Part shown: positions 25,436 through 49,690 of the stretch, in pieces
How the letters are laid out: each line of letters opens with the position of its first letter
How positions within the stretch are numbered: position 1 is the stretch's first letter
Source: an uncultured Eubacteriales bacterium
GTDB taxonomy: Bacteria; Bacillota; Clostridia; Peptostreptococcales; Anaerovoracaceae
Length of the DNA stretch: 51,155 bases
Direction: 5' to 3'
Assembly: GCA_949289445.1 (NCBI GenBank)
Contig: CASEOD010000159.1
Span: 1-51,155 of the forward strand
The notes under the pieces: generated by a model
Database searches by the model: none
What the model saw: the letters and a program-made list of their open reading frames with translations, nothing else
Told to the model about the DNA's origin: nothing
Position numbers and translations under genes: made by a program

Positions 25436-26839
25436 ATGACTGAAAAAAGAGTGAAAATCACAGAAACAGTGCTCAGAGACGGACATCAGTCTCTGATTGC
25501 CACCAGAATGAAGACAGAGGATATGATTCCTATTCTGGAAAAAATGGATTCGGTGGGCTATCATTCTATCGAGTGCTGGGGCGGCGCAACCTTTGACGCG
25601 TCATTGCGATTTTTAAATGAGGACCCGTGGCAGAGGCTCAGGACTCTGCGAAAGAGAATCAGAAATACAAAACTGCAGATGCTGCTGAGGGGGCAAAACT
25701 TACTGGGTTATCGGCATTACGCCGATGATGTGGTAGAATACTTTGTTCAGAAATCTGTGGCAAACGGAATTGATATTCTGCGAATCTTTGATGCTTTCAA
25801 CGATTTGCGCAATGTGGAGACTGCAGTAAAGGCAGCTCGAAAGGAAGGCGCCCATGTGCAGCTTGCCATGTCATACACCACAGGCAGTGCTTACACCATA
25901 GATTACTGGAAATCTCTTGCCTGCGACATGGAAAGTCTGGGCGCAGATTCTATCTGTATTAAAGACATGGCCGGGATTCTGACGCCGGATATGGCAGACA
26001 GGCTGGTCAGGGAGCTGAAAAGCTGCATCAGAATTCCGCTGCAGCTGCACAGTCACTGCACCAGCGGCATCGCCCCTGTTACCTATATGAAAGGTGTTGA
26101 GGCAGGATGCGATGTTATTGACACAGCAATTTCTCCTTTTGCAATGGGAACCAGTCAGCCGGCAACCGAGGTGATGGCAGCGGCTCTTGGGGGGACAGAA
26201 TACGATACAGGACTTGATATGAGTCTGCTGGCCGAAATTGCAGATCATTTCAGACCTATCAGAGATGAAGCCATTGCAAGCGGACTGCTGAATCCCAAAA
26301 TGCTGACAGTGGATGTGAAAACCCTGTTGTATCAGGTGCCCGGCGGTATGCTTTCCAACCTGATGTCTCAGCTGAAAGAGCAAGGAGCAGAAAACAGATT
26401 TTATGAGGTACTGGAGGAGATTCCAAAGGTTCGCGCAGATCTGGGAGAACCTCCGCTGGTGACACCGTCATCTCAGATAGTAGGGACGCAGGCAGTACTC
26501 AATGTGCTGACCGGTCAGCGCTACAAGATTATGTCCAAGGAAACCCGGGCAATTCTTCACGGAGATTATGGAAAGACGGTGAAGCCTTTTAACCCTGAAG
26601 TGCAGAAGATGGCCATCGGTGATGAGGAGCCGATTACCTGCAGACCGGCAGATTTGATGAAGCCTGAGCTTGAAAAACTGGAAAAAGAGATGGAAACTTT
26701 TAAAACGCAGGATGAAGATGTGCTATCTTATGCGCTGTTTCCGAAAGTTGCTGCGGAGTTTTTCAAGTATAGAGATGCGAGAGAAAATAAAATAGATCCG
26801 CTGCAGTACGACCTTGCCAACAAGGCGTACCCGGTATAG
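25436..26839 (+). CDS. oadA: Oxaloacetate decarboxylase alpha / transcarboxylase 5S-type carboxyltransferase
   Basis: A 467-residue TIM-barrel carboxyltransferase of the pyruvate/oxaloacetate family. LRDGHQSLIATRMKTEDM holds the metal aspartate, HSHCTSG the metal histidines, and CIKDMAGILTP the biotin-reactive lysine region. It stops before the biotin domain found in longer OadA proteins, so it depends on the separate carrier at 23920. It takes CO2 from oxaloacetate, leaving pyruvate. Clean AAAGGAG ribosome site. Fourth and last of the genes that follow the 12S-type subunit. Confidence 0.9.
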   Translation: MTEKRVKITETVLRDGHQSLIATRMKTEDMIPILEKMDSVGYHSIECWGGATFDASLRFLNEDPWQRLRTLRKRIRNTKLQMLLRGQNLLGYRHYADDVVEYFVQKSVANGIDILRIFDAFNDLRNVETAVKAARKEGAHVQLAMSYTTGSAYTIDYWKSLACDMESLGADSICIKDMAGILTPDMADRLVRELKSCIRIPLQLHSHCTSGIAPVTYMKGVEAGCDVIDTAISPFAMGTSQPATEVMAAALGGTEYDTGLDMSLLAEIADHFRPIRDEAIASGLLNPKMLTVDVKTLLYQVPGGMLSNLMSQLKEQGAENRFYEVLEEIPKVRADLGEPPLVTPSSQIVGTQAVLNVLTGQRYKIMSKETRAILHGDYGKTVKPFNPEVQKMAIGDEEPITCRPADLMKPELEKLEKEMETFKTQDEDVLSYALFPKVAAEFFKYRDARENKIDPLQYDLANKAYPV

Positions 26840-26858
26840 AAAAGAGAGGTAGATTTAT

Positions 26859-28091
26859 ATGTTTATGGCAAAAGAAAACGGAAGGACAGCCATCGGCGCT
26901 CCCGACAAGCTCTTTGGGGTTTCTTCCAAAGCAAAAGAGAGAATTGCCCAGAAAGGTAAAGATCAGGTTATCGACTCCACCATCGGGGTGCTGCTTGATG
27001 ATGACGGAAAGCTGGTGGTTTTGGAATCTGTCATGGAGTGTATCCGCAGACTGAAGCCGGAGGATTATGCGGCATATGCGCCCATTTTAGGATTGCCGGC
27101 TTATCGTGAGGCAGTAAAAAAAGCAGTATTTATGGATGAAATCCCAGAAGGCATTTTTGTAGAAAGCTGTTACACACCGGGTGGTACCGGGGCTGTCAGA
27201 AACGCCATATCCGGATATACTGAGCCGGGTGATCAGATTCTGGTCAGCGACTGGCACTGGAATCCGTATCAGCTGATCGCTTCTGAGATTGGACGGAAAG
27301 TGACCACCTATCCTCTCTTTGGAAAGGATAATGCCTTCGATGGCGAGGCTTTTGAGAAAGCACTGGGAGATATTCTGAAGGAACAGGAACAGACCCTGGT
27401 GATTATCAATACGCCTGCCCATAATCCTACCGGCTATACCTTTACTGACGAAGACTGGGATAAAGTTCTTGAGATAACCGGACGGTTTTCAGATAAGAAA
27501 ATCGCCTTGCTGGCAGATATTGCCTATCTGGATTTTTCGGGAGATGCGGTCAGCTACAGAACCTTCCTGAAAAAGCTTGCAAAAACGCAGACACATGTGC
27601 TGCCTCTGATTGCTTTCAGTGCATCAAAAGGTTATACGATGTACGGAATGCGCTGCGGAGCAATCCTGTGTATGGCTAAAAGTCCGGAAGTGGCCGGGGA
27701 ATTTCTTGATGTAATGAGTGTGGAGTCCAGAGCCTCCTGGTCCAACGGAAACAGAGCAGCCATGCAGGTGCTGGCGGATATCTTGTCTGATGAAGACTGT
27801 CTGGCAAAGGTGAAAGCTGAGCGGGAACACTATCTTGAGATACTGCGCCGCAGAGGAGCGGCTTTCATGGAGGAAGCTGACAAAGCAGGACTTTCTGTGT
27901 GCCCTTATGACAGCGGATTCTTCATTACGATTCCTTGTGAGAATCCTGAGGCGGCGGGACAGAGACTGCAGGATATGGACATCTTCGTGATTCCGATGGG
28001 AAGAGGACTGCGGGTTTCCGTGGCTTCAAATACGGAAGCAGAATGTAGAGCCATGCCTGCCAGAATCAAAGAAGCGATTCAAAACGCATAA
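26859..28091 (+). CDS. Aspartate/aromatic aminotransferase (class I, PLP)
   Basis: A 410-residue fold-type I aminotransferase. Motifs: INTPAHNPTGYTFTDEDW, ADIAYLDFSG, the PLP lysine in FSASKGYTMYGMRCG, and the substrate-carboxylate arginine in RVSVAS near the C-terminus. The SxSKxxxxYGxRxG layout is that of the aspartate/aromatic subgroup Ialpha. It lies 19 bases after oadA, so it probably makes oxaloacetate from aspartate for the decarboxylase, although aromatic amino acids are also possible. Start ATG 26859 or 26865. Confidence 0.83.
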   Translation: MFMAKENGRTAIGAPDKLFGVSSKAKERIAQKGKDQVIDSTIGVLLDDDGKLVVLESVMECIRRLKPEDYAAYAPILGLPAYREAVKKAVFMDEIPEGIFVESCYTPGGTGAVRNAISGYTEPGDQILVSDWHWNPYQLIASEIGRKVTTYPLFGKDNAFDGEAFEKALGDILKEQEQTLVIINTPAHNPTGYTFTDEDWDKVLEITGRFSDKKIALLADIAYLDFSGDAVSYRTFLKKLAKTQTHVLPLIAFSASKGYTMYGMRCGAILCMAKSPEVAGEFLDVMSVESRASWSNGNRAAMQVLADILSDEDCLAKVKAEREHYLEILRRRGAAFMEEADKAGLSVCPYDSGFFITIPCENPEAAGQRLQDMDIFVIPMGRGLRVSVASNTEAECRAMPARIKEAIQNA

Positions 28092-28114
28092 AGCTTGTGA
28101 TCATACGTGACAGG

Positions 28115-28147
28115 ACCCAAAAGTCTTCGACTTTTGGGTTTTGTTTT
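28115..28147 (+). terminator. Intrinsic terminator of the decarboxylase-aminotransferase operon
   Basis: An 11-bp perfect stem ACCCAAAAGTC/GACTTTTGGGT with loop TTC, followed by TTTGTTTTG. Confidence 0.9.
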
Positions 28148-28158
28148 GCAAAAAGCTG

Positions 28159-28167
28159 TGGTATAGT
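28159..28167 (+). promoter_or_regulatory. Extended -10 promoter of the Lrp-type regulator
   Basis: TGGTATAGT (TGN plus TATAGT at 28162-28167) lies right after the terminator, with no good -35 box. Start would be near 28174, 24 bases before the ATG. Confidence 0.5.
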
Positions 28168-28197
28168 AGTATTGAAAAAAATGAAGGCAGGTTATAG

Positions 28198-28626
28198 ATG
28201 AAAAACTTAGATGAAATTGATATAAAGATTCTCAACAAGCTGAAAACAAATGCCCGCACACCGCTGAAGGAGCTTTCTGCAGAGGTTTATCTGACAACGC
28301 CCGCAGTATCTGCGCGGATAGAAAAACTGGAAAAGGAAGGCTATATCAAAGGGTATCATGCAGATTTGGATCTTGAGAAACTGGGTTTCGGAATCAAGGC
28401 GTTTATCCTGATCACCGTTGAGCCTGAGGACAGTAAGAAATTCTATGAATTTGTGGAAAAACAGGATTCAGTGCTGGAATGCAATCATATTACCGGACCG
28501 TATTCTATGATTCTCAAGGTAGTCTTTTCGTCAACGGGACTTTTGGATGAGTTCCTCGGTAAACTGCAGGTTTTCGGAAAAACCGAGACACAGGTGGTGT
28601 TCTCTACGGTGCTGGAACGGCACTGA
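28198..28626 (+). CDS. Lrp/AsnC-family transcriptional regulator
   Basis: A 142-residue protein with the Lrp N-terminal winged helix (LDEIDIKILNKLKTNARTPLKELS) and a C-terminal RAM ligand-binding domain. The family senses amino acids and often controls adjacent amino-acid transport or catabolism genes. Its own promoter and a terminator on either side make it monocistronic. Placed just after the aminotransferase, it is a reasonable regulator of that cluster. Confidence 0.9.
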   Translation: MKNLDEIDIKILNKLKTNARTPLKELSAEVYLTTPAVSARIEKLEKEGYIKGYHADLDLEKLGFGIKAFILITVEPEDSKKFYEFVEKQDSVLECNHITGPYSMILKVVFSSTGLLDEFLGKLQVFGKTETQVVFSTVLERH

Positions 28627-28682
28627 TACCCGGAGGAGATATTCAGAATAAAACATATTGAAAATGTAACAGGTGTGACAAG

Positions 28683-28716
28683 ATCAGAAAAGTTCCGGAG
28701 GCTTTTCTGATTTTTC
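28683..28716 (+). terminator. Intrinsic terminator after the Lrp-type gene
   Basis: ATCAGAAAAG (28683-28692) pairs with CTTTTCTGAT (28702-28711), followed by TTTTC. Confidence 0.85.
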
Positions 28717-28771
28717 TTTTATCCGGCGTAAAAGACAGATTGACCATAGCTTTGGAGCATTGAAAAGGCCG

Positions 28772-28803
28772 GCCGCTGACCCGGGTCAGCGGCACAGTTT
28801 TTG
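28772..28803. terminator. GC-rich hairpin, likely terminator of the minus-strand regulator
   Basis: GCCGCTGACC (28772-28781) and GGTCAGCGGC (28784-28793) form a 10-bp stem with a 2-base core. A TTTTTG tract on the plus side and a short TTTTC on the minus side allow use in both directions. Confidence 0.7.
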
Positions 28804-28805
28804 TT

Positions 28806-30512
28806 CTATCTGATTTTTCGATTCTCCAGGATCATAATGCCTTTATCCGTCAGAGAAAGACCGTATTTCCCGTGGGTGGATGAAACCAGTCCGGCTTCCG
28901 ACAGTTCCGCCAGTCTTTTTCGGATTTTGTATTCAGAAAGATCGATACCGTTATCTCTCAGGAACCAGTAGATTCTGTTTCTTCCTGCAATCTCGCTTCT
29001 CTGGTTGATTTCGTGTATTGCTGCCAGAATATTCAGGGAGATGGGGTCTGCACAGGCATCTGGGTCCCATACAGCGGATTCGTCAAAAGTCTGAACACTG
29101 CTATATGGCAGGTTATCTGCGGTAATGATATCTTTTTCACTGACGGCAAGCGCAAATCTGATGGTATTCATCAGTTCTCTCACATTTCCCGGCCAGTCCT
29201 TTCGCATCAGTGTCTCCATGGCTGAAGTGCTGATCTCTTTGTAGCTTTTGAATCTGGTACTCAGCCAGTAATCAATGAGCAGAGGAATATCCTCTTTCCT
29301 TTCCGACAGAGGAGGAAGCCGGAGATAACTTTCTTTCAGCCGGTAATACAGATCTTTTCTGAAAAGACGGTCGCTGATCATCTTTTGGAGATCACGGCTG
29401 GTTGAGGCAATGATGCGGATATCTACGGGAATGAGACGGCTGCCTCCCTTTTTTATGATTTCCTTTTCCTGCAGAACATGCAGCAATTTTGCCTGTATTT
29501 TCAGAGACATGTCTCCGATTTCGTTGAGGAAGACCGTTCCGCCTTCTGCCTGCTGAAACAGGCCTGTTCTGCTTTCTCCGCCGAAGAGTTCTGACTCGAT
29601 AAGGTCGTCAGGCAGAGCAGAAAAGTTTATTGTGACAAAAGGGCGGCTTTTTCGCAGGGATGCATTGTGAATTGCACCGGCAAGCAATTCTTTACCGGTA
29701 CCGTTCTCTCCTTCAATGAGAACCGTCAGATCCGTTCTTGCGATTTTTTCTGCAGAGTGTTTTATCTTGATCATGGAAGGATGTCTTCCGATGATGTCAT
29801 CAAAGTGGTATTTGGCATATAATCCTTTTCTCGGCAGTGCAGTTCTGACAGTTTCTGTTATTTCACCGTTTGATTCGGCTGCATCGGCAAGACGGCGAGC
29901 AAAGGAAAACAGTTTCTTTTGACAGAGCTGCGCATAATACTGAATATTCTGCTCCGGAACATGAAAATGGGTCATGATTCGAATGACCGTTCCAAAGTCA
30001 AAGAGAAGAGCGCCCATGATGTATACTTTTTCTATGCCGGGAGGGACAAAGGACAGGTTTCCTGTGGTAACTGCCGGGGTATCTGAAGTAAAAGACGGGC
30101 TGGCACCCGGATAGCAGAGTTTGAAATGAAGATATCCGAATCCCATGTCTCTCAGAATTTCTGCTGTTTCACCGGCTGTTTCTCTGGAATCGGACATCAG
30201 CAGTATTTCCTGATCACGGGGAAGAGTCAGGAGCAGTTCCAGACTTTCGCCGCTGAGGGTAGGGGTACCGGTAATATATTGATCAATGTGATTTTGAAGA
30301 TCTGTATTCTGACATATGCTGCAGATTGCCTGACTTGAAAAAACTGTATAGTAACGCCCTTTCAGAGCAGGTTTACCGGTTTCATTGACGGGATAGGGGA
30401 TGATTACCGTATCGTCCGGAAGGACTTCTCGCAACTGTTCGGACAGTGCTTTCAGTGTATGGGAGTTCTCTGCTGCCAGAAGCAGCTGTTTATCAGACTG
30501 AATGGAAAACAT
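28806..30512 (-). CDS. Sigma-54-type AAA+ regulator lacking the GAFTGA loop
   Basis: A 568-residue protein with an unrecognised N-terminal sensory region (1-230), a sigma-54-activator-type AAA+ domain (about 236-450; Walker A GENGTGKE at 268-275) and a C-terminal winged-helix-like segment resembling that of the activator at 3734. Two departures stand out. The stretch that should contain GAFTGA is about 10 residues shorter (ELFGGESRTGLF, 309-320). Walker B reads VFLNE instead of VFLDE. Without GAFTGA it should not contact sigma-54, so it may act as a sigma-A regulator, as TyrR does. The start at 30512 (MFSIQS) has AAGGAA 8 bases upstream; an upstream in-frame ATG at 30542 lacks one. Targets are unknown; the aminotransferase/decarboxylase cluster is convergent to it. 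Confidence 0.82.
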   Translation of the reverse strand: MFSIQSDKQLLLAAENSHTLKALSEQLREVLPDDTVIIPYPVNETGKPALKGRYYTVFSSQAICSICQNTDLQNHIDQYITGTPTLSGESLELLLTLPRDQEILLMSDSRETAGETAEILRDMGFGYLHFKLCYPGASPSFTSDTPAVTTGNLSFVPPGIEKVYIMGALLFDFGTVIRIMTHFHVPEQNIQYYAQLCQKKLFSFARRLADAAESNGEITETVRTALPRKGLYAKYHFDDIIGRHPSMIKIKHSAEKIARTDLTVLIEGENGTGKELLAGAIHNASLRKSRPFVTINFSALPDDLIESELFGGESRTGLFQQAEGGTVFLNEIGDMSLKIQAKLLHVLQEKEIIKKGGSRLIPVDIRIIASTSRDLQKMISDRLFRKDLYYRLKESYLRLPPLSERKEDIPLLIDYWLSTRFKSYKEISTSAMETLMRKDWPGNVRELMNTIRFALAVSEKDIITADNLPYSSVQTFDESAVWDPDACADPISLNILAAIHEINQRSEIAGRNRIYWFLRDNGIDLSEYKIRKRLAELSEAGLVSSTHGKYGLSLTDKGIMILENRKIR

Positions 30513-30619
30513 AGTGATTCCTTCTTTCTTTGTGGTATTCAAATTGTATCATAAATATCCCGGGAATAAAAGCGCCGGACAGATGATTCTGAGAGGTATA
30601 TGGTGGTATATAGAATAAT

Positions 30620-31492
30620 ATGAATACGAAAGAGATGAAAAAGGAGAAATATATCGGCTGCCATCTTTCTTCCGCGAAAGGTTTTGCGGCCATGGGAAAA
30701 GATGCGGTAAGCATCGGCGCCAACACTTTTGCATTTTTTACGAGAAACCCGCGGGGAGGAAAAGCGAAAGAGATCGACGTGAAAGATGCGGAGAATCTGC
30801 TTGCGATCATGGAGGAATATCAGTTCGGCAAGCTGGTCGCCCATGCGCCTTACACTCTGAATCCCTGTTCAGCAACTGAAAAAACCAGAGAATTTGCCTA
30901 TATGGCTATGAAAGAAGATATGGAAAGAATGGAATATCTACCGGGAAACTACTATAATTTTCATCCCGGAAGTCATGTCGGCCAGGGTGTGGAAAAAGGG
31001 ATCGAGATGATTGCGGATTTACTGAACCGGATCGTTACTCCGGGACAGTCTACTGTGATTCTGCTGGAAACCATGGCAGGTAAAGGCAGTGAAATAGGAG
31101 GCAGTTTCCGGGAGCTTGCGGCTGTTATAGACCGTGTAAAGTATGGTGAAAAGATCGGTGTCTGTCTGGACACCTGTCATGTCAGTGACGGCGGCTATGA
31201 TATTGTTGAAAACCTGGATGGTGTACTGGAAGAATTTGATCGAATCATCGGACTTGACCGGCTGAAGGCGCTTCATGTCAACGACAGCCGGAACCCGAGA
31301 GGAGCCCGCAAGGATCGCCATGCGCCCATCGGGGAGGGATTCATCGGAACAGAGGCTATCCTTCAAGTGGTGAATCATCCCGCGCTCATAGGACTTCCCT
31401 GCATTCTGGAAACACCTCAGCCGGATCTTTCCGGCTATGCCAGAGAAATTGAACTGTTGAGAAATTCTGTTCCCGCTGAGGCACATTTCTGA
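30620..31492 (+). CDS. nfo: Endonuclease IV (apurinic/apyrimidinic endonuclease)
   Basis: A 290-residue TIM-barrel DNA-repair enzyme (AP endonuclease family 2) that cuts 5' of abasic sites using three zinc ions. Motifs: [12 protein letters not shown] at the N-terminus, [54 protein letters not shown] and ILETP. Length is normal (about 280-290). The start is uncertain: ATG 30620 and ATG 30638 both lack a clear ribosome site. The 107-bp region to 30512 carries both divergent promoters. Confidence 0.95.
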
Positions 31493-31528
31493 AGCGGATA
31501 AACCGGTCAGAAGAGATAGAATTAACGG

Positions 31529-31770
31529 AGCGTTAACCAGATAATCAAAGAAACGGATTCAAGAGTATAAATATGAGCTTCTGTTAACCAGAAATTGCAA
31601 AGAACAGAGAAATGAGTATGAAGTCTTTGATGGAATTTATCGTTTTTGGCGGAGTTTTCATACTCAAATCGAAGAGAAATGCGATTTCTGGTTGATTTTT
31701 ATTCGGATTTTTCTTTTCAGCGGCGAATTTTTTATACAGAAAAAGAGTACTTTCATTGTTTCTGGTTAAT
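31529..31770. repeat. Composite repeat R1: four 37-bp units (two forward, two inverted)
   Basis: Each unit is 37 bp, begins AACC(AG) and ends near GAGTATRAA. Forward units are 31535-31571 and 31586-31622 (51-bp period). After a 34-bp centre, inverted units are 31657-31693 and 31731-31767 (74-bp period, twice 37). The inner pair can fold as a long hairpin. R2 (32718-32940) is the same composite in the opposite orientation. The unit at 31586 is identical over 37 of 37 bases to the complement of 32853-32889. This repeat fills most of the gap between nfo and the nuclease-like gene. Confidence 0.85.
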
Positions 31771-31831
31771 CGCAGGGGCAACTGTCCGGGCAGCACCGGA
31801 TAAGACAGCAGAATCAGGGGCTGAACGGCAA

Positions 31832-32620
31832 TCAGAAAAACGGCAGAAGCTGACTGTCAATGATCCTGCTGATAGCTTCTACATTGATACTGCCGTCAGG
31901 TCCGTTCATTGTGATGATTAAATTGTCCGGAACAATAATGCCATGATAATAGTAGTCAGTCAGTTTCGAGAAGAATTTTCCGCGGTAGGAGGGCAGATCC
32001 AGTCTGCCGGCATGTTCCCAGTATACTATGTTTCCTGAAGGTGTAATGATAGTGAAGTCCGGGTAATAGGCGATTGTTTTGCCGTTTTTATCTGATAATT
32101 GCAATGGGGCTTCGTATTGGAAAGGGATGTTTGCTGCGTGAAGCAGTTCAGCGATCAGGGCTTCTGATTTCGAACGGACATACAGTCCAAAAGAAGTTCG
32201 CTCTGTCAGGCCCTGCTGGTAGAATTTGTTTTGTGAACGGCGAAAGCCTGCCTCTATCTGATATGAACAGACAATAGACGCATTGGAATACACGGGCGCC
32301 AGTTTTTTCTCAATAGAAGCAGGATCAAAGTTTTCATATAGTTTCAGCATTTTTTCCTGAGCTTCTATATTTTTTTTCATTACCGCGATGGCGGCTTCCA
32401 TGACGCGACGGTTTTTTAGCTGATAAATCAGTTTTCCGTTCCCTGTGCTGATATAGATCTGTTTCTTGCTCTTGTTCTCGACACGGTAATAATAAACCTT
32501 GCCTCGGATTTTTTTACAGGTCAGCCGTCCCTCGGGCAGGCAGCAGAGTGCAGAGGTAAACTGCTTTATCAGATCTTTCTGCAGTCTGATATTCTGTTTT
32601 GTCAGTTCCTGATAACTCAT
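31832..32620 (-). CDS. Orphan PD-(D/E)XK nuclease-like protein inside inverted repeats
   Basis: A 262-residue protein with no close family name that I can give. The first 110 residues are Lys/Gln-rich with coiled-coil character (LTKQNIRLQKDLIKQF, then MEAAIAVMKKNIEAQEKMLKLYE). The C-terminal half has a PD-(D/E)XK-like layout: RSKSEALIAELL (E153), FQYEAPL (E170), YYPDFTI (D188) and YWEHAG (E202, H203), as in restriction-type endonuclease folds. The usual lysine is replaced by histidine. AAGGAGAGG precedes the ATG. It has its own promoter (32651-32679). The gene sits alone on the minus strand between two inverted composite repeats, hinting at a mobile or repeat-maintaining element. Nuclease fold is inference from motifs; function is unknown. 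Confidence 0.65.
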   Translation of the reverse strand: MSYQELTKQNIRLQKDLIKQFTSALCCLPEGRLTCKKIRGKVYYYRVENKSKKQIYISTGNGKLIYQLKNRRVMEAAIAVMKKNIEAQEKMLKLYENFDPASIEKKLAPVYSNASIVCSYQIEAGFRRSQNKFYQQGLTERTSFGLYVRSKSEALIAELLHAANIPFQYEAPLQLSDKNGKTIAYYPDFTIITPSGNIVYWEHAGRLDLPSYRGKFFSKLTDYYYHGIIVPDNLIITMNGPDGSINVEAISRIIDSQLLPFF

Positions 32621-32650
32621 ATATTTCCTCTCCTTGTCTTTAATGTAATT

Positions 32651-32679
32651 ATTTTACATTTTAGCCGTGGGCTTGTCAA
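32651..32679 (-). promoter_or_regulatory. Promoter of the PD-(D/E)XK-like gene
   Basis: On the minus strand TTGACA (32679-32674), a 17-base spacer and TAAAAT (32656-32651). It lies inside the element, between repeat R2 and the gene. Confidence 0.75.
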
Positions 32680-32714
32680 TAAAAACTTACAGATAATGGA
32701 AATTTTGGCAGGCT

Positions 32715-32946
32715 GTCAACCAAAATGACAAATAAAGCGTTTTATGAGTATAAAAAATTGACCGCCAGTGAGAGAAAATTGGGCAAAAATCAACCAGAAG
32801 TCGCATTTTCCTTCGATTTGAGTATGAAAAAGCCACCGGAAACAGTCGTTCCTTCATACTCATTTCTCTGTTCTTTGCAATTTCTGGTTAACAAGATCTT
32901 ATATTTATACTTTCAAATTCGTTATTCTCGTTTTCCGGTTAACCGC
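32715..32946. repeat. Composite repeat R2: inverted copy of R1
   Basis: Units: forward 32718-32754 and 32792-32828 (74-bp period), 24-bp centre, inverted 32853-32889 and 32904-32940 (51-bp period). Reading its complement gives the same order and spacing as R1, with similarity along the whole length except the centre. It occupies most of the gap between the nuclease-like gene and the phosphohexomutase stop at 32978. Confidence 0.85.
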
Positions 32947-32977
32947 TCTTTCAAAACGGATATCAGAACGATGAAAA

Positions 32978-34501
32978 CTACAGCCGGGATATGTCCAGAC
33001 CATCAAATTTTTCCAGCAGAGGTTTCAGCCTGCGGCGGATTTCATCGCAGCCTCCCTCCACATCGGATTCCACATTCAGAGGCATAATCGGATCGTGGAG
33101 AGATTTTCGCAGAAGCATCCAGCCACTGCAGGACGGATGGGTGAAGTTGATACGGACACCTTCATAGTTGGGCTGTACCGGAACCGCATCTTCTATCTTT
33201 CCGTCGGCGGCCAGTTCTTCCAGATTGTGCAGGATCTCATCGCCGTAAGAGGAAAAATCCTCTTTCAGTATAGGAAATCTGATTTCGACGGCTTCAGCAG
33301 GTACAGTCAGATCGGAGATCAAAGTGGAAATCCCTTTTCCTTCCCGGAAAAGCTGAGCTGCTTTGATGACGATTTTTGTAGCCAGATAAGCGCCGTCATC
33401 GAGGAAGTAATTCTCTTTGTAGGCAGCGTGGCCGGAGGTCTCGATGGCAAGCTGGCTGTCGGTACCGTTATCACATAATTCCTTTGCTTTGTTGATGACA
33501 TTTTTGTAGCCTCGTTTGAAACGCAGATGGGAAAGACCCAGATTGTCTTCCAGAAAAGCAGTCAGCTGTCTGCTGGTGATGCTGTCCGTAACCACAGTGG
33601 TACCCGGGTGCTGATCCGCAATGAGCGCTGCGGCCATAGCAACAATGCCGTTTCGGCTGATTTCTCTGCCATGCTCATCCACTGCGGAGGAGCGGTCTAC
33701 ATCGGTATCAAAGATAATACCCAGATCTGCACCAGATTCTTTAACTCTGCTGCAGATTGCCTCCATGGCTTTTTTATCCTCCGGATTTGGCGCATGATTC
33801 GGGAAGTTTCCGTCAGGTTCCAGAAACTGGCCGGAGGATACATCGGCGCCCAGCGGTTTCAGAACTTTATCGGCATAAAATCCGCCGGCACCGTTTCCCG
33901 CATCTACAGTGATTTTCATACCGGAAAGAGGATGGTCGCTGCCGGCGCCGTTTTTGATCAGGGTTCTGAGGTGAGCGGCATATGTATCGAGAAGCGGAAT
34001 TTCTTCCACTTCTTTTGGCGTGCTTACTCTTACGGAATTGAGAATAGAGTCCGATTCTGCAAAGGTGATGATGTCGGCAATGTCTCCTTTGTCAAGACCA
34101 CCCTTTTCACTGAAAAATTTCATGCCGTTTCGATTCCAGGGAAGGTGGCTCGCAGTGATCATCACTGCGCCGTCACATCGATAATCTTCGAAAATTGTGG
34201 ACATAAACATGGCAGGTGTAGAAGCGATACCTGCGGATAACAGCCTGCATCCGTAAGGTCTTACGGCCTCAAAGAAGGCGTCAGCCAGTGCTTTGCCAGA
34301 AAGCCTCGGATCCCGGCCTACTGAAATCGTCAGCTGAGATGCGTCCTTGCCGGTAGTATGACAGAGCCAGAAAAGAAAGCCTCTGGCCAGACGGCCTGCC
34401 GCCGTTTGATCCAGATTAACCGGTTCTCCAGGAACCCCATCCAGAGCCACACCTCTGATGTCACTGCCGTTCTGCAGCCTGCTGTAATCGTATTTTGCCA
34501 T
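32978..34501 (-). CDS. Phosphohexomutase (phosphomannomutase/phosphoglucomutase)
   Basis: A 507-residue alpha-D-phosphohexomutase. The active-site serine lies in ITASHLPWNRNG (S118), the metal loop is DTDVDRS, the sugar-binding loop ETSGH, and the C-terminal phosphate loop sits near the end. It interconverts hexose 1- and 6-phosphates for cell-wall and surface polysaccharide precursors. Glucose versus mannose preference cannot be read from sequence. The composite repeat R2 lies just beyond its stop. The start at 34501 is preceded by a GGGGG-rich ribosome site. Confidence 0.88.
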   Translation of the reverse strand: MAKYDYSRLQNGSDIRGVALDGVPGEPVNLDQTAAGRLARGFLFWLCHTTGKDASQLTISVGRDPRLSGKALADAFFEAVRPYGCRLLSAGIASTPAMFMSTIFEDYRCDGAVMITASHLPWNRNGMKFFSEKGGLDKGDIADIITFAESDSILNSVRVSTPKEVEEIPLLDTYAAHLRTLIKNGAGSDHPLSGMKITVDAGNGAGGFYADKVLKPLGADVSSGQFLEPDGNFPNHAPNPEDKKAMEAICSRVKESGADLGIIFDTDVDRSSAVDEHGREISRNGIVAMAAALIADQHPGTTVVTDSITSRQLTAFLEDNLGLSHLRFKRGYKNVINKAKELCDNGTDSQLAIETSGHAAYKENYFLDDGAYLATKIVIKAAQLFREGKGISTLISDLTVPAEAVEIRFPILKEDFSSYGDEILHNLEELAADGKIEDAVPVQPNYEGVRINFTHPSCSGWMLLRKSLHDPIMPLNVESDVEGGCDEIRRRLKPLLEKFDGLDISRL

Positions 34502-34532
34502 GATTTTGTCCCCCTATCAGTCACTTGTTTTG

Positions 34533-34901
34533 TCAGAAAAATATAGTTCTATTATATTTTATCAGGGAGAAGAAGGCAAGGCATATTAAAAACCAGTATG
34601 CCGTGTATTTAGGGCAGATCTGTCCCATAATATTGCCCGGAAGCGCCGAATAATCCCAGACGTCCCACTGGAACCACACATTGACAATGAGCCCCATGGA
34701 AAATTCATAAAAAGTGATGATGACAGCTCCTACCAGAGCTGTAGCGAAGACATTCATCTGGAGAAGAAAAGGAGTCATCAGATAAAAGGTAAAGGCCACT
34801 GCACCGCCTGTGAGAATCATGGACCAGTGGGTGCAACCTCGGTAAAGTATTTCCGTAATGCCGTAAAAAACGCCCCCCAATATAAAAACTATCAACTCCA
34901 T
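34533..34901 (-). CDS. Small membrane protein, putative ABC-transporter permease family (PF06541-like)
   Basis: A 122-residue protein with four predicted membrane helices. The motif WDVWDYSALPGNIMGQICPKY and the aromatic C-terminal span match the 'putative ABC transporter permease' family widespread in Clostridia. No ATPase partner is nearby, so the transporter label is weak. It ends 31 bases before the phosphohexomutase start on the same strand and may be co-transcribed with it. Confidence 0.65.
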   Translation of the reverse strand: MELIVFILGGVFYGITEILYRGCTHWSMILTGGAVAFTFYLMTPFLLQMNVFATALVGAVIITFYEFSMGLIVNVWFQWDVWDYSALPGNIMGQICPKYTAYWFLICLAFFSLIKYNRTIFF

Positions 34902-34963
34902 GTTTCTAATATTTGAGGTTAGGCTAATTTTATGCGCTTAAAGATGAAATCGGTATTTTTTTG

Positions 34964-34972
34964 TGATATGAT
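34964..34972 (+). promoter_or_regulatory. Extended -10 promoter of the sortase gene
   Basis: TGATATGAT (TGN plus TATGAT at 34967-34972) precedes the GGGGGAG ribosome site at 34991-34996. Confidence 0.5.
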
Positions 34973-35004
34973 AAAAGATACAATTTAATCGGGGGAGTTT
35001 TGAA

Positions 35005-35736
35005 TTGAAGAAAAAAGAAAGGGAAAAAACTTCATTTTTATATAGAGTGATTATCTGTATGCTGATCGCCGTCATTATTTTTTCTCTGTACAAAATCGGA
35101 GGGATTCTTCTGGAATATCGACAGGGAACGGCGGTCTATGAAGAGCTGAAAACTCTGGCAGGGACTGAGACCGATCCGGAAGGCGCAGACTTCAAAAGAC
35201 TGATGGCGGAAAACAAAGATATAAAAGCCTGGCTCTTTTCTGAAGGAACGGTGATCAACTATCCTGTAGTACAGGGAGAAGATAATGAGTATTATCTGTA
35301 TCACATGGTTAACGGAGAGTGGAACGGCAAAGGCTCGATCTTTATCGATTACCGGTGTGAAAATCCCTTTGAAGACTTTAACACAATCATTTACGGGCAC
35401 AGGATGAAAGACGGCACCATGTTTCATTCGCTCATAGAGTATGAAGACCGGACATATTACGAAGAACACAAAACCATGAGACTGATACTGCCGGAAAAAA
35501 GCTTTGATGTTGAAGTGTTCAGCGTTATGAGAATTCCGGCAGACAGTTCTCTGTATCAGTATGATTTCTCGGGAAAAGGGGAAATAGAAGCCTATCTGGG
35601 CAAGATCACTGAAGAAAGCCTGATTGATACAGAGACAAAGGTTTCGTCAGAAGATAAAATCGTGATGATGAGCACCTGCACCTACGAATTTGAACAGGCT
35701 CGGTTCGTGGTTTTCGGAAAGCTTTCCGAAAGGTAA
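35005..35736 (+). CDS. Class B sortase
   Basis: A 243-residue sortase with an N-terminal signal anchor (about 12-34). The catalytic residues are H132 (YGHRMKDGTMF), C224 (STCTYEFEQAR) and R232. The H-M/KDG-MF pattern and the spacing are those of class B. It would attach a cell-surface protein to the wall from the outer face of the membrane. The start is TTG 35005 with GGGGGAG 8 bases upstream; there is no alternative ATG before the anchor. No protein with a sorting signal is encoded nearby; the small secreted protein at 37304 lacks one. Confidence 0.88.
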   Translation: MKKKEREKTSFLYRVIICMLIAVIIFSLYKIGGILLEYRQGTAVYEELKTLAGTETDPEGADFKRLMAENKDIKAWLFSEGTVINYPVVQGEDNEYYLYHMVNGEWNGKGSIFIDYRCENPFEDFNTIIYGHRMKDGTMFHSLIEYEDRTYYEEHKTMRLILPEKSFDVEVFSVMRIPADSSLYQYDFSGKGEIEAYLGKITEESLIDTETKVSSEDKIVMMSTCTYEFEQARFVVFGKLSER

Positions 35737-35742
35737 AAAACC

Positions 35743-35801
35743 TGACGCCAACAGAAATTACCCTGTCGGTTGTTGCATTATCTCCTGTCAGGTAGTTTTA
35801 T
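35743..35801 (+). terminator. Hairpin after the sortase gene
   Basis: ACCTGAC near 35749 pairs with GTCAGGT near 35787, enclosing an inner CCAACAG/CTGTCGGTTG-type stem, followed by AGTTTTATT. A modest T tract makes termination likely but not certain. Confidence 0.5.
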
Positions 35802-35880
35802 TGACAGGCTGCAGCAAATAAACTATTAGCAGAAGGATCTTTTAAAAGCACTGCTGTTTATAAATGAGGGGAGGAATTTT

Positions 35881-35931
35881 TTGAAGAACTTGCACACACC
35901 GCCGTATACTTTCTTACAGGTTGATTCATGA
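35881..35931 (+). CDS. 16-codon leader ORF coupled to the sigma factor
   Basis: TTG 35881 lies 5 bases after GGGGAGGA (35868-35875), the only good ribosome site before the sigma gene. It opens a 16-residue peptide, (M)KNLHTPPYTFLQVDS, whose TGA stop (35929-35931) overlaps the sigma-factor ATG at 35928 as ATGA. The sigma gene has no clear site of its own. This looks like translational coupling through a leader peptide. The peptide is too short for homology. Confidence 0.5.
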   Translation: MKNLHTPPYTFLQVDS

Positions 35932-36494
35932 TGACTAATTTCGGATTTAAGAAGAAACTCAGCGACGAGGAACTTGCAGAAAGAGTGGAAATACTCTGCG
36001 AGAATTACGGAAATGTCGAATATCTGGTCAAAGTTTTCAATGTGCCAAAGAATGACAGAGAGGATGTGGTACAGGAAATCTTTGTACTGGCATACCGTAA
36101 TATCGGACAGCTGAAAGATATGGATTGTCTGGATTCCTGGCTTTACAAAATTGCGTACAGATATGTTCTGGGAATCAGAAGGAAATATGAGATTAAGGAA
36201 GAGGCGGAATTTTATTATGAGGATTATCCTATAGAACTGGAGGATCTGAGCAGCAGTAAAGAGACATGGGAAATTATGGACAATGACTTTACTGATGAGA
36301 CTCTGGTGGAACTGATCAACAGCCTGAAACCTCCGGCGCCGGAGATTCTGAGGCTTCGCTTTAAAATGGGATTTACACTCAAAGAAATAGCAGTAATTTT
36401 AGATATGAATTATAACTCAGTGAAAACAATTGAGAGCAGAGCTTTGAAAAGATTGAGAGATAAAATTGAGCAGAGGGGCAAAAACGATGAATAA
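35928..36494 (+). CDS. RNA polymerase sigma factor, ECF/sigma-70 type
   Basis: A 188-residue two-domain sigma factor. Region 2 lies at about 25-90 (REDVVQEIFVLAYRNIGQL, then DSWLYKIAYRYVLGI) and region 4 at about 125-185 (LRLRFKMGFTLKEIAVILDMNYNSVKTIESRALKRLR). It overlaps the next gene by 8 bases, a membrane protein that is its likely anti-sigma partner. Translation is probably coupled to the leader ORF at 35881. No matching autoregulatory promoter could be assigned. Confidence 0.85.
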   Translation: MMTNFGFKKKLSDEELAERVEILCENYGNVEYLVKVFNVPKNDREDVVQEIFVLAYRNIGQLKDMDCLDSWLYKIAYRYVLGIRRKYEIKEEAEFYYEDYPIELEDLSSSKETWEIMDNDFTDETLVELINSLKPPAPEILRLRFKMGFTLKEIAVILDMNYNSVKTIESRALKRLRDKIEQRGKNDE

Positions 36495-49480: not shown

Positions 49481-49690
49481 AACCAGGAATTGAAAAAAAC
49501 ACTGAGATGAGTATAAATATGGGAAGTTGCTAACCAGAGAATTAAATATTCCCGATTTTGAGTATAAATGTTTATACTCTTTTTTTCATTTTAAAATCAT
49601 TTCGGTTAAAACAGGGCTGATTTGTACTCAAAAACTAGATTTTTACCCTGTTTTTTATACTCAGGTTCACTGTAACAGATAATTATGGAT
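49481..49690. repeat. Composite repeat R3: third member of the 37-bp unit family, no gene inside
   Basis: Forward units 49481-49517 and 49532-49568 keep the 37-bp length and 51-bp period of R1. An inverted unit, 49571-49607, follows after only 2 bases. A more decayed inverted unit lies at 49654-49690 (TTTATACTC at its start, ATGGAT where CTGGTT is expected). An extra TTTGTACTC stands at 49621. R3 is more diverged than R1/R2. Confidence 0.75.

Follow-up and report, generated by a model that had tools for sequence, protein, structure and literature searches.

The REP repeats and their RAYT enzymes are the classic example of short repeats in bacteria that have an enzyme of their own. REPtrons combine a gene, inverted repeats and scattered copies of the repeat (PMC2817692, PMC3116915, PMC6006769, PMC8049555), and distinct gene-repeat pairs of the REP/REPIN-RAYT type are present in one genome, with ends that are more conserved than the spacers (PMC2817692, PMC3116915, PMC6006769). 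REP repeats are suspected to remain after loss of the gene (PMC6006769). The locus analyzed in this study resembles REP/REPIN and RAYT (TnpA-REP) in that one gene is flanked by inverted repeats while the repeat is scattered in intergenic DNA. It is likely a member of an undescribed nuclease-and-repeat family, since about half of the homologues that were checked adjoin repeats of other sequence, mostly with whole-turn spacing.

The window, i.e., the whole stretch of DNA that was analyzed, is an entire 51-kb contig (C159) of a genome of 2.14 Mb that is 84.8% complete. The host bacterium is a relative of the genus Emergencia, and the genomes G193 and G197 used below for comparison belong to the same genus. 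The window contains the following features:

31535..31767, plus strand: R1, element of four units (F1, F2, R, R), located 3' of the gene
31535..31571, plus strand: R1 unit 1 (37 bp)
31586..31622, plus strand: R1 unit 2, 51 bp after unit 1
31657..31693, minus strand: R1 unit 3
31731..31767, minus strand: R1 unit 4
31832..32620, minus strand: gene of the 262-amino-acid protein, the single ORF between R1 and R2
32651..32679, minus strand: promoter-like site of the gene, TTGACA-17-TAAAAT
32718..32940, minus strand: R2, inverted copy of the four-unit element of R1, on the 5' side of the gene
32718..32754, plus strand: R2 unit 4
32792..32828, plus strand: R2 unit 3
32853..32889, minus strand: R2 unit 2
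32904..32940, minus strand: R2 unit 1, with more than three mismatches to the corrected genome-search pattern
49481..49690, plus strand: gene-free copy of the four-unit element, intergenic
49481-49517 (plus), 49532-49568 (plus), 49571-49607 (minus) and 49654-49690 (minus): units of the gene-free copy

An earlier sequence-only reading of this DNA had located eight units of exactly 37 bp, and all of them are present at the coordinates it claimed. Its measurements of the composites hold as well: the unit steps in R1 and R2 are 51 and 74 bp, the centers span 34 and 24 bp, and unit 31586-31622 is identical over 37 of 37 bases to the complement of 32853-32889. R1 and R2 are indeed inverted composites, with arms (31532-31623 and 32852-32943) that are 84% complementary over 92 nt, and with inner arms (31642-31744 and 32741-32843) that are 76% complementary over 103 nt. 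Only one gene lies between them, as had been proposed. The promoter-like site of this gene at 32679-32651 matches at 11 of 12 positions, but its region contains 4 such sites versus 3.0 (sd 2.1) in shuffled sequence. A TGTAAAATAATTACA-like sequence overlaps the promoter-like site (window 32621-32680) and recurs, weakly, upstream of other homologues. The search string suggested earlier, with an N12 spacer, gives zero matches and had to be corrected, the right spacer being 13 bases. The gene-free composite at 49481-49690 had been overlooked, although it lies within the same window.

With the corrected pattern AACCAGAAAT-N17-TGAGTATRAA, which covers the first ten and the last ten bases of the unit and allows up to three mismatches, the host genome contains 31 sites versus 0 with a reversed control. 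Seven of the eight known units are among these sites. The window accounts for ten sites, namely the seven known units plus three at 49.5 kb, and the remaining 21 are distributed over ten further contigs. Since 24 of the 31 sites fall in 11 gene-free arrays of the same plan, including the one at 49481-49690, R1 and R2 represent two occurrences of one dispersed element. Four units are recognizable in eight of the gene-free arrays and three units in the other three, and all 11 have a 51-bp step between two neighboring units at one end and inverted units toward the other end. Aligned together with R1 and R2, the resulting 13 arrays have a length of 201-264 bp; the unit ends (TTAACC and TGAGTATAAA) are constant, and the middles and linkers vary. 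The two composites are therefore not the end structures of one element but two copies of an element that has 11 further, gene-free occurrences. A search for the 37-bp unit in another 196 genomes of the family gives 0 to 3 matches per genome, the same as the reversed control; four of the 12 other genus members were included in this search (the remaining eight being G197-G204). At the Rfam gathering thresholds, seven array loci yielded one tRNA and otherwise no structured-RNA family.

The 262-amino-acid protein is composed of an N-terminal helical-hairpin/beta domain (residues 1-110) and a predicted PD-(D/E)XK nuclease domain (residues about 136-262). The latter had been guessed from the DNA alone and is now backed by residue conservation and by the predicted fold, which has an alpha-beta core with E, D and E-x-K/H residues and has I-Bth0305I as its best structural match. 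Residues E153, P187, F189, E202 and G205 are invariant across homologues, and those predicted to be catalytic show little or no variation among 84 homologues. In addition, residues 122-256 match the end of the PADLOC PDC-S68 models (E 2e-30), where only positions 1089-1217 of 1221 are covered. The HUH/Y1 family (Pfam Transposase_17) has no match in the window protein or in the table of 84 members, the TnsA-like score of the window protein (12.3) is under the cut-off of 26.5, and the nine neighboring genes (25436 to 36494) have no match to TnsB/TnsC-type or defense-suggesting Pfam families. Up to 13 homologue matches occur in one genome of the family, and carriers of the gene named in record titles are Roseburia faecis M72 and Emergencia timonensis SN18. 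As a side observation (P0099, P0109), RecD-like helicase proteins (PDC-S68) end in the same nuclease domain, and plasmids carry similar domains within genes for an AAA ATPase or a helicase.

Repeated units of different sequence can be recognized by eye in the flanks of homologues from other genomes, e.g., GCACCAT-N20-ATGGTGC in G193 and TGGCCCGCA-TGCGGGCCA in G157. For a systematic flank test, 700-bp flanks were scanned for recurrences of a 6-mer paired with its complement at a distance of 10-30 bases, with the same 6-mer and gap each time. The first set, taken from the best-scoring matches, consists of 64 loci (72 gene places minus two duplicates and six with short flanks), of which 31 have at least two inverted-end units and 17 at least three. 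At least two units were found in 0 of 320 shuffles and in 1 of 68 control genes, the flanks of which are more often coding than those of homologues, and at least three in none of these controls. The second set, drawn from named genomes and controlled by shuffles as the sole control type, comprises 66 loci, some of them close to each other (80 minus four with short flanks and ten already in use); at least two units are present in 31 and at least three in 23, versus 2 and 0 of 380 shuffles, respectively. Core lengths at loci with at least three units are 33-37 bp in 16 of 17 cases in the first set and 32-38 bp in 20 of 23 cases in the second, where 29, 40 and 41 bp occur once each. No repeated inverted-end units were detected by the flank test at 33 of 64 and 35 of 66 loci. 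The units of the window itself fail the test because their two ends differ, and the test can therefore miss real arrays. Of 115 places, 24 have units on the upstream side alone, 21 on the downstream side alone and ten on both; at the other 60, none were found.

As in the window's own genome, the repeats of other homologues extend beyond the gene. G193 contains 55 palindromic sites versus five in the control. Four units are present in ten of 14 G193 places, with steps of 62/63, 176-179 and 62/63 bp in eight of them and a middle step of 188-189 bp in two (L189, L191); one of the 14 places directly adjoins a nuclease gene. At 31 G193/G197 loci, two exact half-sites are separated by 0-60 bases in 67 cases, and the distance is 20 bases in 64 of these. 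Roseburia faecis M72 has 19 sites versus 0 in the control, three of which adjoin the gene, and its other sites include four-unit arrays with a 51-bp period. Among Treponema MAGs, L318, L339 and L349 carry the gene, and in L349 it is adjoined by five units of its own (TACCTA); the gene may have been transferred out of Clostridia or its presence may reflect a binning error.

An association of repeat and nuclease is thus supported beyond this window as well: the 37-bp unit is at background level in 196 other genomes, and about half of the homologues tested have their own repeats next to them. We saw neither an equal frequency of the units in protein-free genomes nor a consistent absence of such repeats beside the homologues, the two outcomes that would make the link coincidental. 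Unit similarity is hardly predicted by protein similarity (Spearman 0.066, a value reached in 114 of 2000 Mantel permutations), and unrelated units are possible for proteins at 55-60% identity. The pairing therefore rests on adjacency and shared geometry and not on co-variation. A further result against the link comes from G197, a 98% complete genome in which the GCACCAT family is represented by 52 sites: the G193 gene that adjoins this family has no close homologue among the matches found in G197. The best match is 50% identical and is a contig-end piece next to the phosphomannomutase gene (PMM); others are 29-37% identical. For the G197 arrays, either the gene has been lost, or it was not assembled, or the arrays are served by another protein.

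When three pairs of elements from corresponding loci in G193 and G197 are compared in the correct orientation, they reveal where the sequence is retained: the unit ends changed at 3 of 154 positions, the middles at 51 of 218 and the linkers at 119 of 556, and the conservation of the ends is somewhat overstated because the pairs were found through sites kept in both species. In the flanks of two pairs, which are partly coding, 188 of 1183 positions differ. In one pair, the element has the opposite orientation with respect to its right-hand flank (88% identity inverted versus 69% direct), the left flanks being unmatched, and one pair is short of a unit and a linker (63 alignment columns for a unit step of 62). 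At one locus, a single unit in one species corresponds to four in the other. Six G193 elements were sought in G197, of which two are absent from the matching gaps; the flanks of the other four were not found together. The syntenic comparison called for by the sequence-only reading thus gives elements absent at two matching loci, but neither target duplications nor base-exact empty junctions were seen at these two empty loci, where the intergenic DNA is too diverged. The absent elements could be losses. At non-matching places, identity is 75-79% over the element and ends within about 35 bp of the outer units, and the element in G193 has defined ends and a size of about 336 bp. Consequently, the ends of the units persist while the elements themselves appear or disappear, change orientation and shed units.

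The gap before PMM holds a nuclease gene in five genomes of the genus, namely the window's genome, G193, G165, G199 and G197 (in the latter as pieces at two contig ends), and no nuclease gene was found in this gap of G201, G202, G203, G204 and G130. G198, with PMM beyond the stretch read, and G072 and G200, without an EndoIV match, are outside this count. In the tree, the window gene groups with G193:C43 and metagenome proteins (100/98), the gap genes of G193 and G199 group with two G204 copies located elsewhere (99/97), and the gap gene of G165 falls in a third, less supported group. The gap between EndoIV and PMM (window 31493-32977; L097, L109, L146) is thus occupied by nuclease genes of three lineages in different species, which suggests that the gene itself moves. 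The gene next to EndoIV in some gaps, presumably butyrate kinase, is missing from the window. The gap copies L097 (G193:C11) and L142 (G197:C8) have, by eye, different motifs beside them (GCCAACTT versus GCCATATTC) and present a case where the change of the unit could be followed in detail.

A further shared property is the spacing of the units. Among 134 places scanned (some listed twice), 43 loci have at least three units, with steps between neighboring units that are mostly 41-43, 52-54, 61-64, 71-75, 82-85, 93-94, 104-107 and 124-127 bp. After three near-duplicate loci were dropped and each distinct step was counted once per locus, 65 steps from 40 loci remained, for which the best period in the range of 8 to 14 is 10.5 bp, with a resultant of 0.70 that none of 20,000 random sets attains. 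Of the 59 steps of up to 130 bp, 88% deviate from a multiple of 10.5 by no more than 2 bp, where about 38% is expected. The arrays of the window's own genome, which are separate from this set, have a resultant of 0.73 over all 30 steps and of 0.64 over 15 distinct steps (9 of 10,000 random sets as high), with an offset of about -2 bp; their units are asymmetric, and therefore steps between opposite units need not share the same phase. Families of different sequence thus follow one rule, with units on about the same face of the helix, and this helical phasing, as read from the spacing, favors cooperative binding to duplex DNA. As single-stranded DNA, two window units fold no better than shuffles (z 0.61 and -0.83). 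Three of four units from other families do fold as DNA hairpins, so that hairpins may still apply to those families; overall, three of six units have a z below -3.

We consider it fairly probable that the window locus is one member of a repeat-plus-nuclease family in which the protein binds the unit ends as duplex DNA in helical phase and cuts, with the elements spreading by break repair. A putative nuclease dimer would recognize both ends of a unit in duplex DNA, and neighboring dimers would stack in phase with the helix. Cleavage within or next to an array may then trigger repair in which arrays are copied, shortened, inverted or inserted at another place; repair by copying from another array would explain the dispersal as well as the gain and loss of units. 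In line with the earlier suggestion, we infer that the protein recognizes or moves the repeats, i.e., that it binds the adjacent repeat, cuts, and moves elements in trans in a REPIN-like manner. The chances are about even that these loci represent a new class of mobile DNA, in which homing-type PD-(D/E)XK nucleases spread and maintain in trans their own helix-phased palindromic double-strand arrays, with a specificity that changes fast.

Other explanations draw on parts of the same evidence. The arrays could be sites that benefit the host, with the protein as an array-binding regulator or chromosome organizer whose nuclease activity is secondary or rarely used, and with phased cooperative binding and conserved ends selected by the host at each locus. 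The ends are conserved at matching loci across species divergence, the spacing is strict and none of the 22 G193/G197 elements is enclosed by an ORF of at least 300 nt (some overlap an ORF end), all of which agrees with such a role. We nevertheless regard it as rather unlikely, given predicted catalytic residues that are invariant or nearly so in 84 homologues, matching loci at which elements are absent, have the opposite orientation or are shorter by a unit, as many as 13 homologue matches in a genome, and neighboring genes of the 22 elements that are in tandem (11), convergent (8) or divergent (3) orientation. An anti-phage or anti-plasmid system, in which the nuclease is directed against invaders and is kept or restrained on the host chromosome by the arrays, would fit the match of residues 122-256 to the end of PDC-S68 (E 2e-30) and the several homologues per genome. 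This is improbable, however, as the helicase part of PDC-S68 is absent, none of the nine neighbors has a defense-suggesting Pfam match, and arrays at many loci are left unexplained.

The system might also be of the REP/RAYT type in all but the enzyme, with units that form single-stranded hairpins during replication and are processed by the protein. The layout matches that of REPtrons (PMC2817692, PMC3116915, PMC6006769), and three of the six tested units fold with a z below -3. The 10.5-bp spacing between units would be needless for single strands, the two window units fold no better than shuffles and no HUH/Y1 match was found, which makes this model distinctly improbable. The parallel with REP/BIME repeats and RAYT drawn in the sequence-only reading is retained for the layout, but helical phasing and the poor folding of the two window units point to double-stranded DNA rather than hairpins. 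Almost no weight is given to the idea that the nuclease gene is a passenger and that the arrays are MITEs of the ordinary kind, served by an unrelated transposase: the defined ends of the elements and their lengths of 201-264 bp in the window's own genome and about 336 bp in G193 are compatible with it, but homologues of many genera adjoin arrays of the same design and different sequence, and terminal target duplication was not seen at the two empty loci, with their diverged intergenic DNA.

If the model of a duplex-binding nuclease that spreads its own arrays is true, partnerships between a nuclease and a repeat arose more than once, based on an unrelated fold and another way of reading DNA. 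It would provide the duplex-DNA counterpart of REPIN-RAYT, with a nuclease domain shared with helicase-nucleases, and would account for numerous intergenic arrays of Clostridia that lack annotation; by record title, many of these stem from gut samples. The fast change of unit sequence would imply many natural specificities in a compact protein of about 260 residues, and the spacing rule makes the system directly testable.

In comparison to known systems, the window locus shares with REP/REPIN and RAYT the distinct gene-repeat pairs and the ends that are conserved more than the spacers. REP/RAYT is of the HUH/Y1 type, whereas a PD-(D/E)XK fold is predicted here; the system thus works like a REPtron but is not one, because no HUH/Y1 domain was matched. 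In addition, its units of about 32-38 bp have unpaired middles of about 20 bp and are helically phased, with four-unit elements in Emergencia genomes. From the Vsr-like (EDxHD) homing endonuclease I-Bth0305I, Vsr and TnsA, the window protein differs in its pairing with a repeat array, and Tn7-like elements have TnsB/TnsC next to TnsA, unlike the nine neighboring genes in the window. A homing endonuclease cuts alleles without its own gene and is thereby copied into them; in this regard, the gap before PMM is occupied by genes of three lineages in different species. The candidate defense helicase-nuclease PDC-S68 of PADLOC has a homologous C-terminal nuclease domain but is a protein of about 1220 amino acids with a RecD-like helicase, whereas the window protein consists of this domain and a 110-residue N-terminal domain and is adjoined by repeats. 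Phased operator or iteron arrays are repeated protein sites on one face of the helix; unlike those, the arrays described here occur in many dispersed copies and adjoin a predicted nuclease gene.
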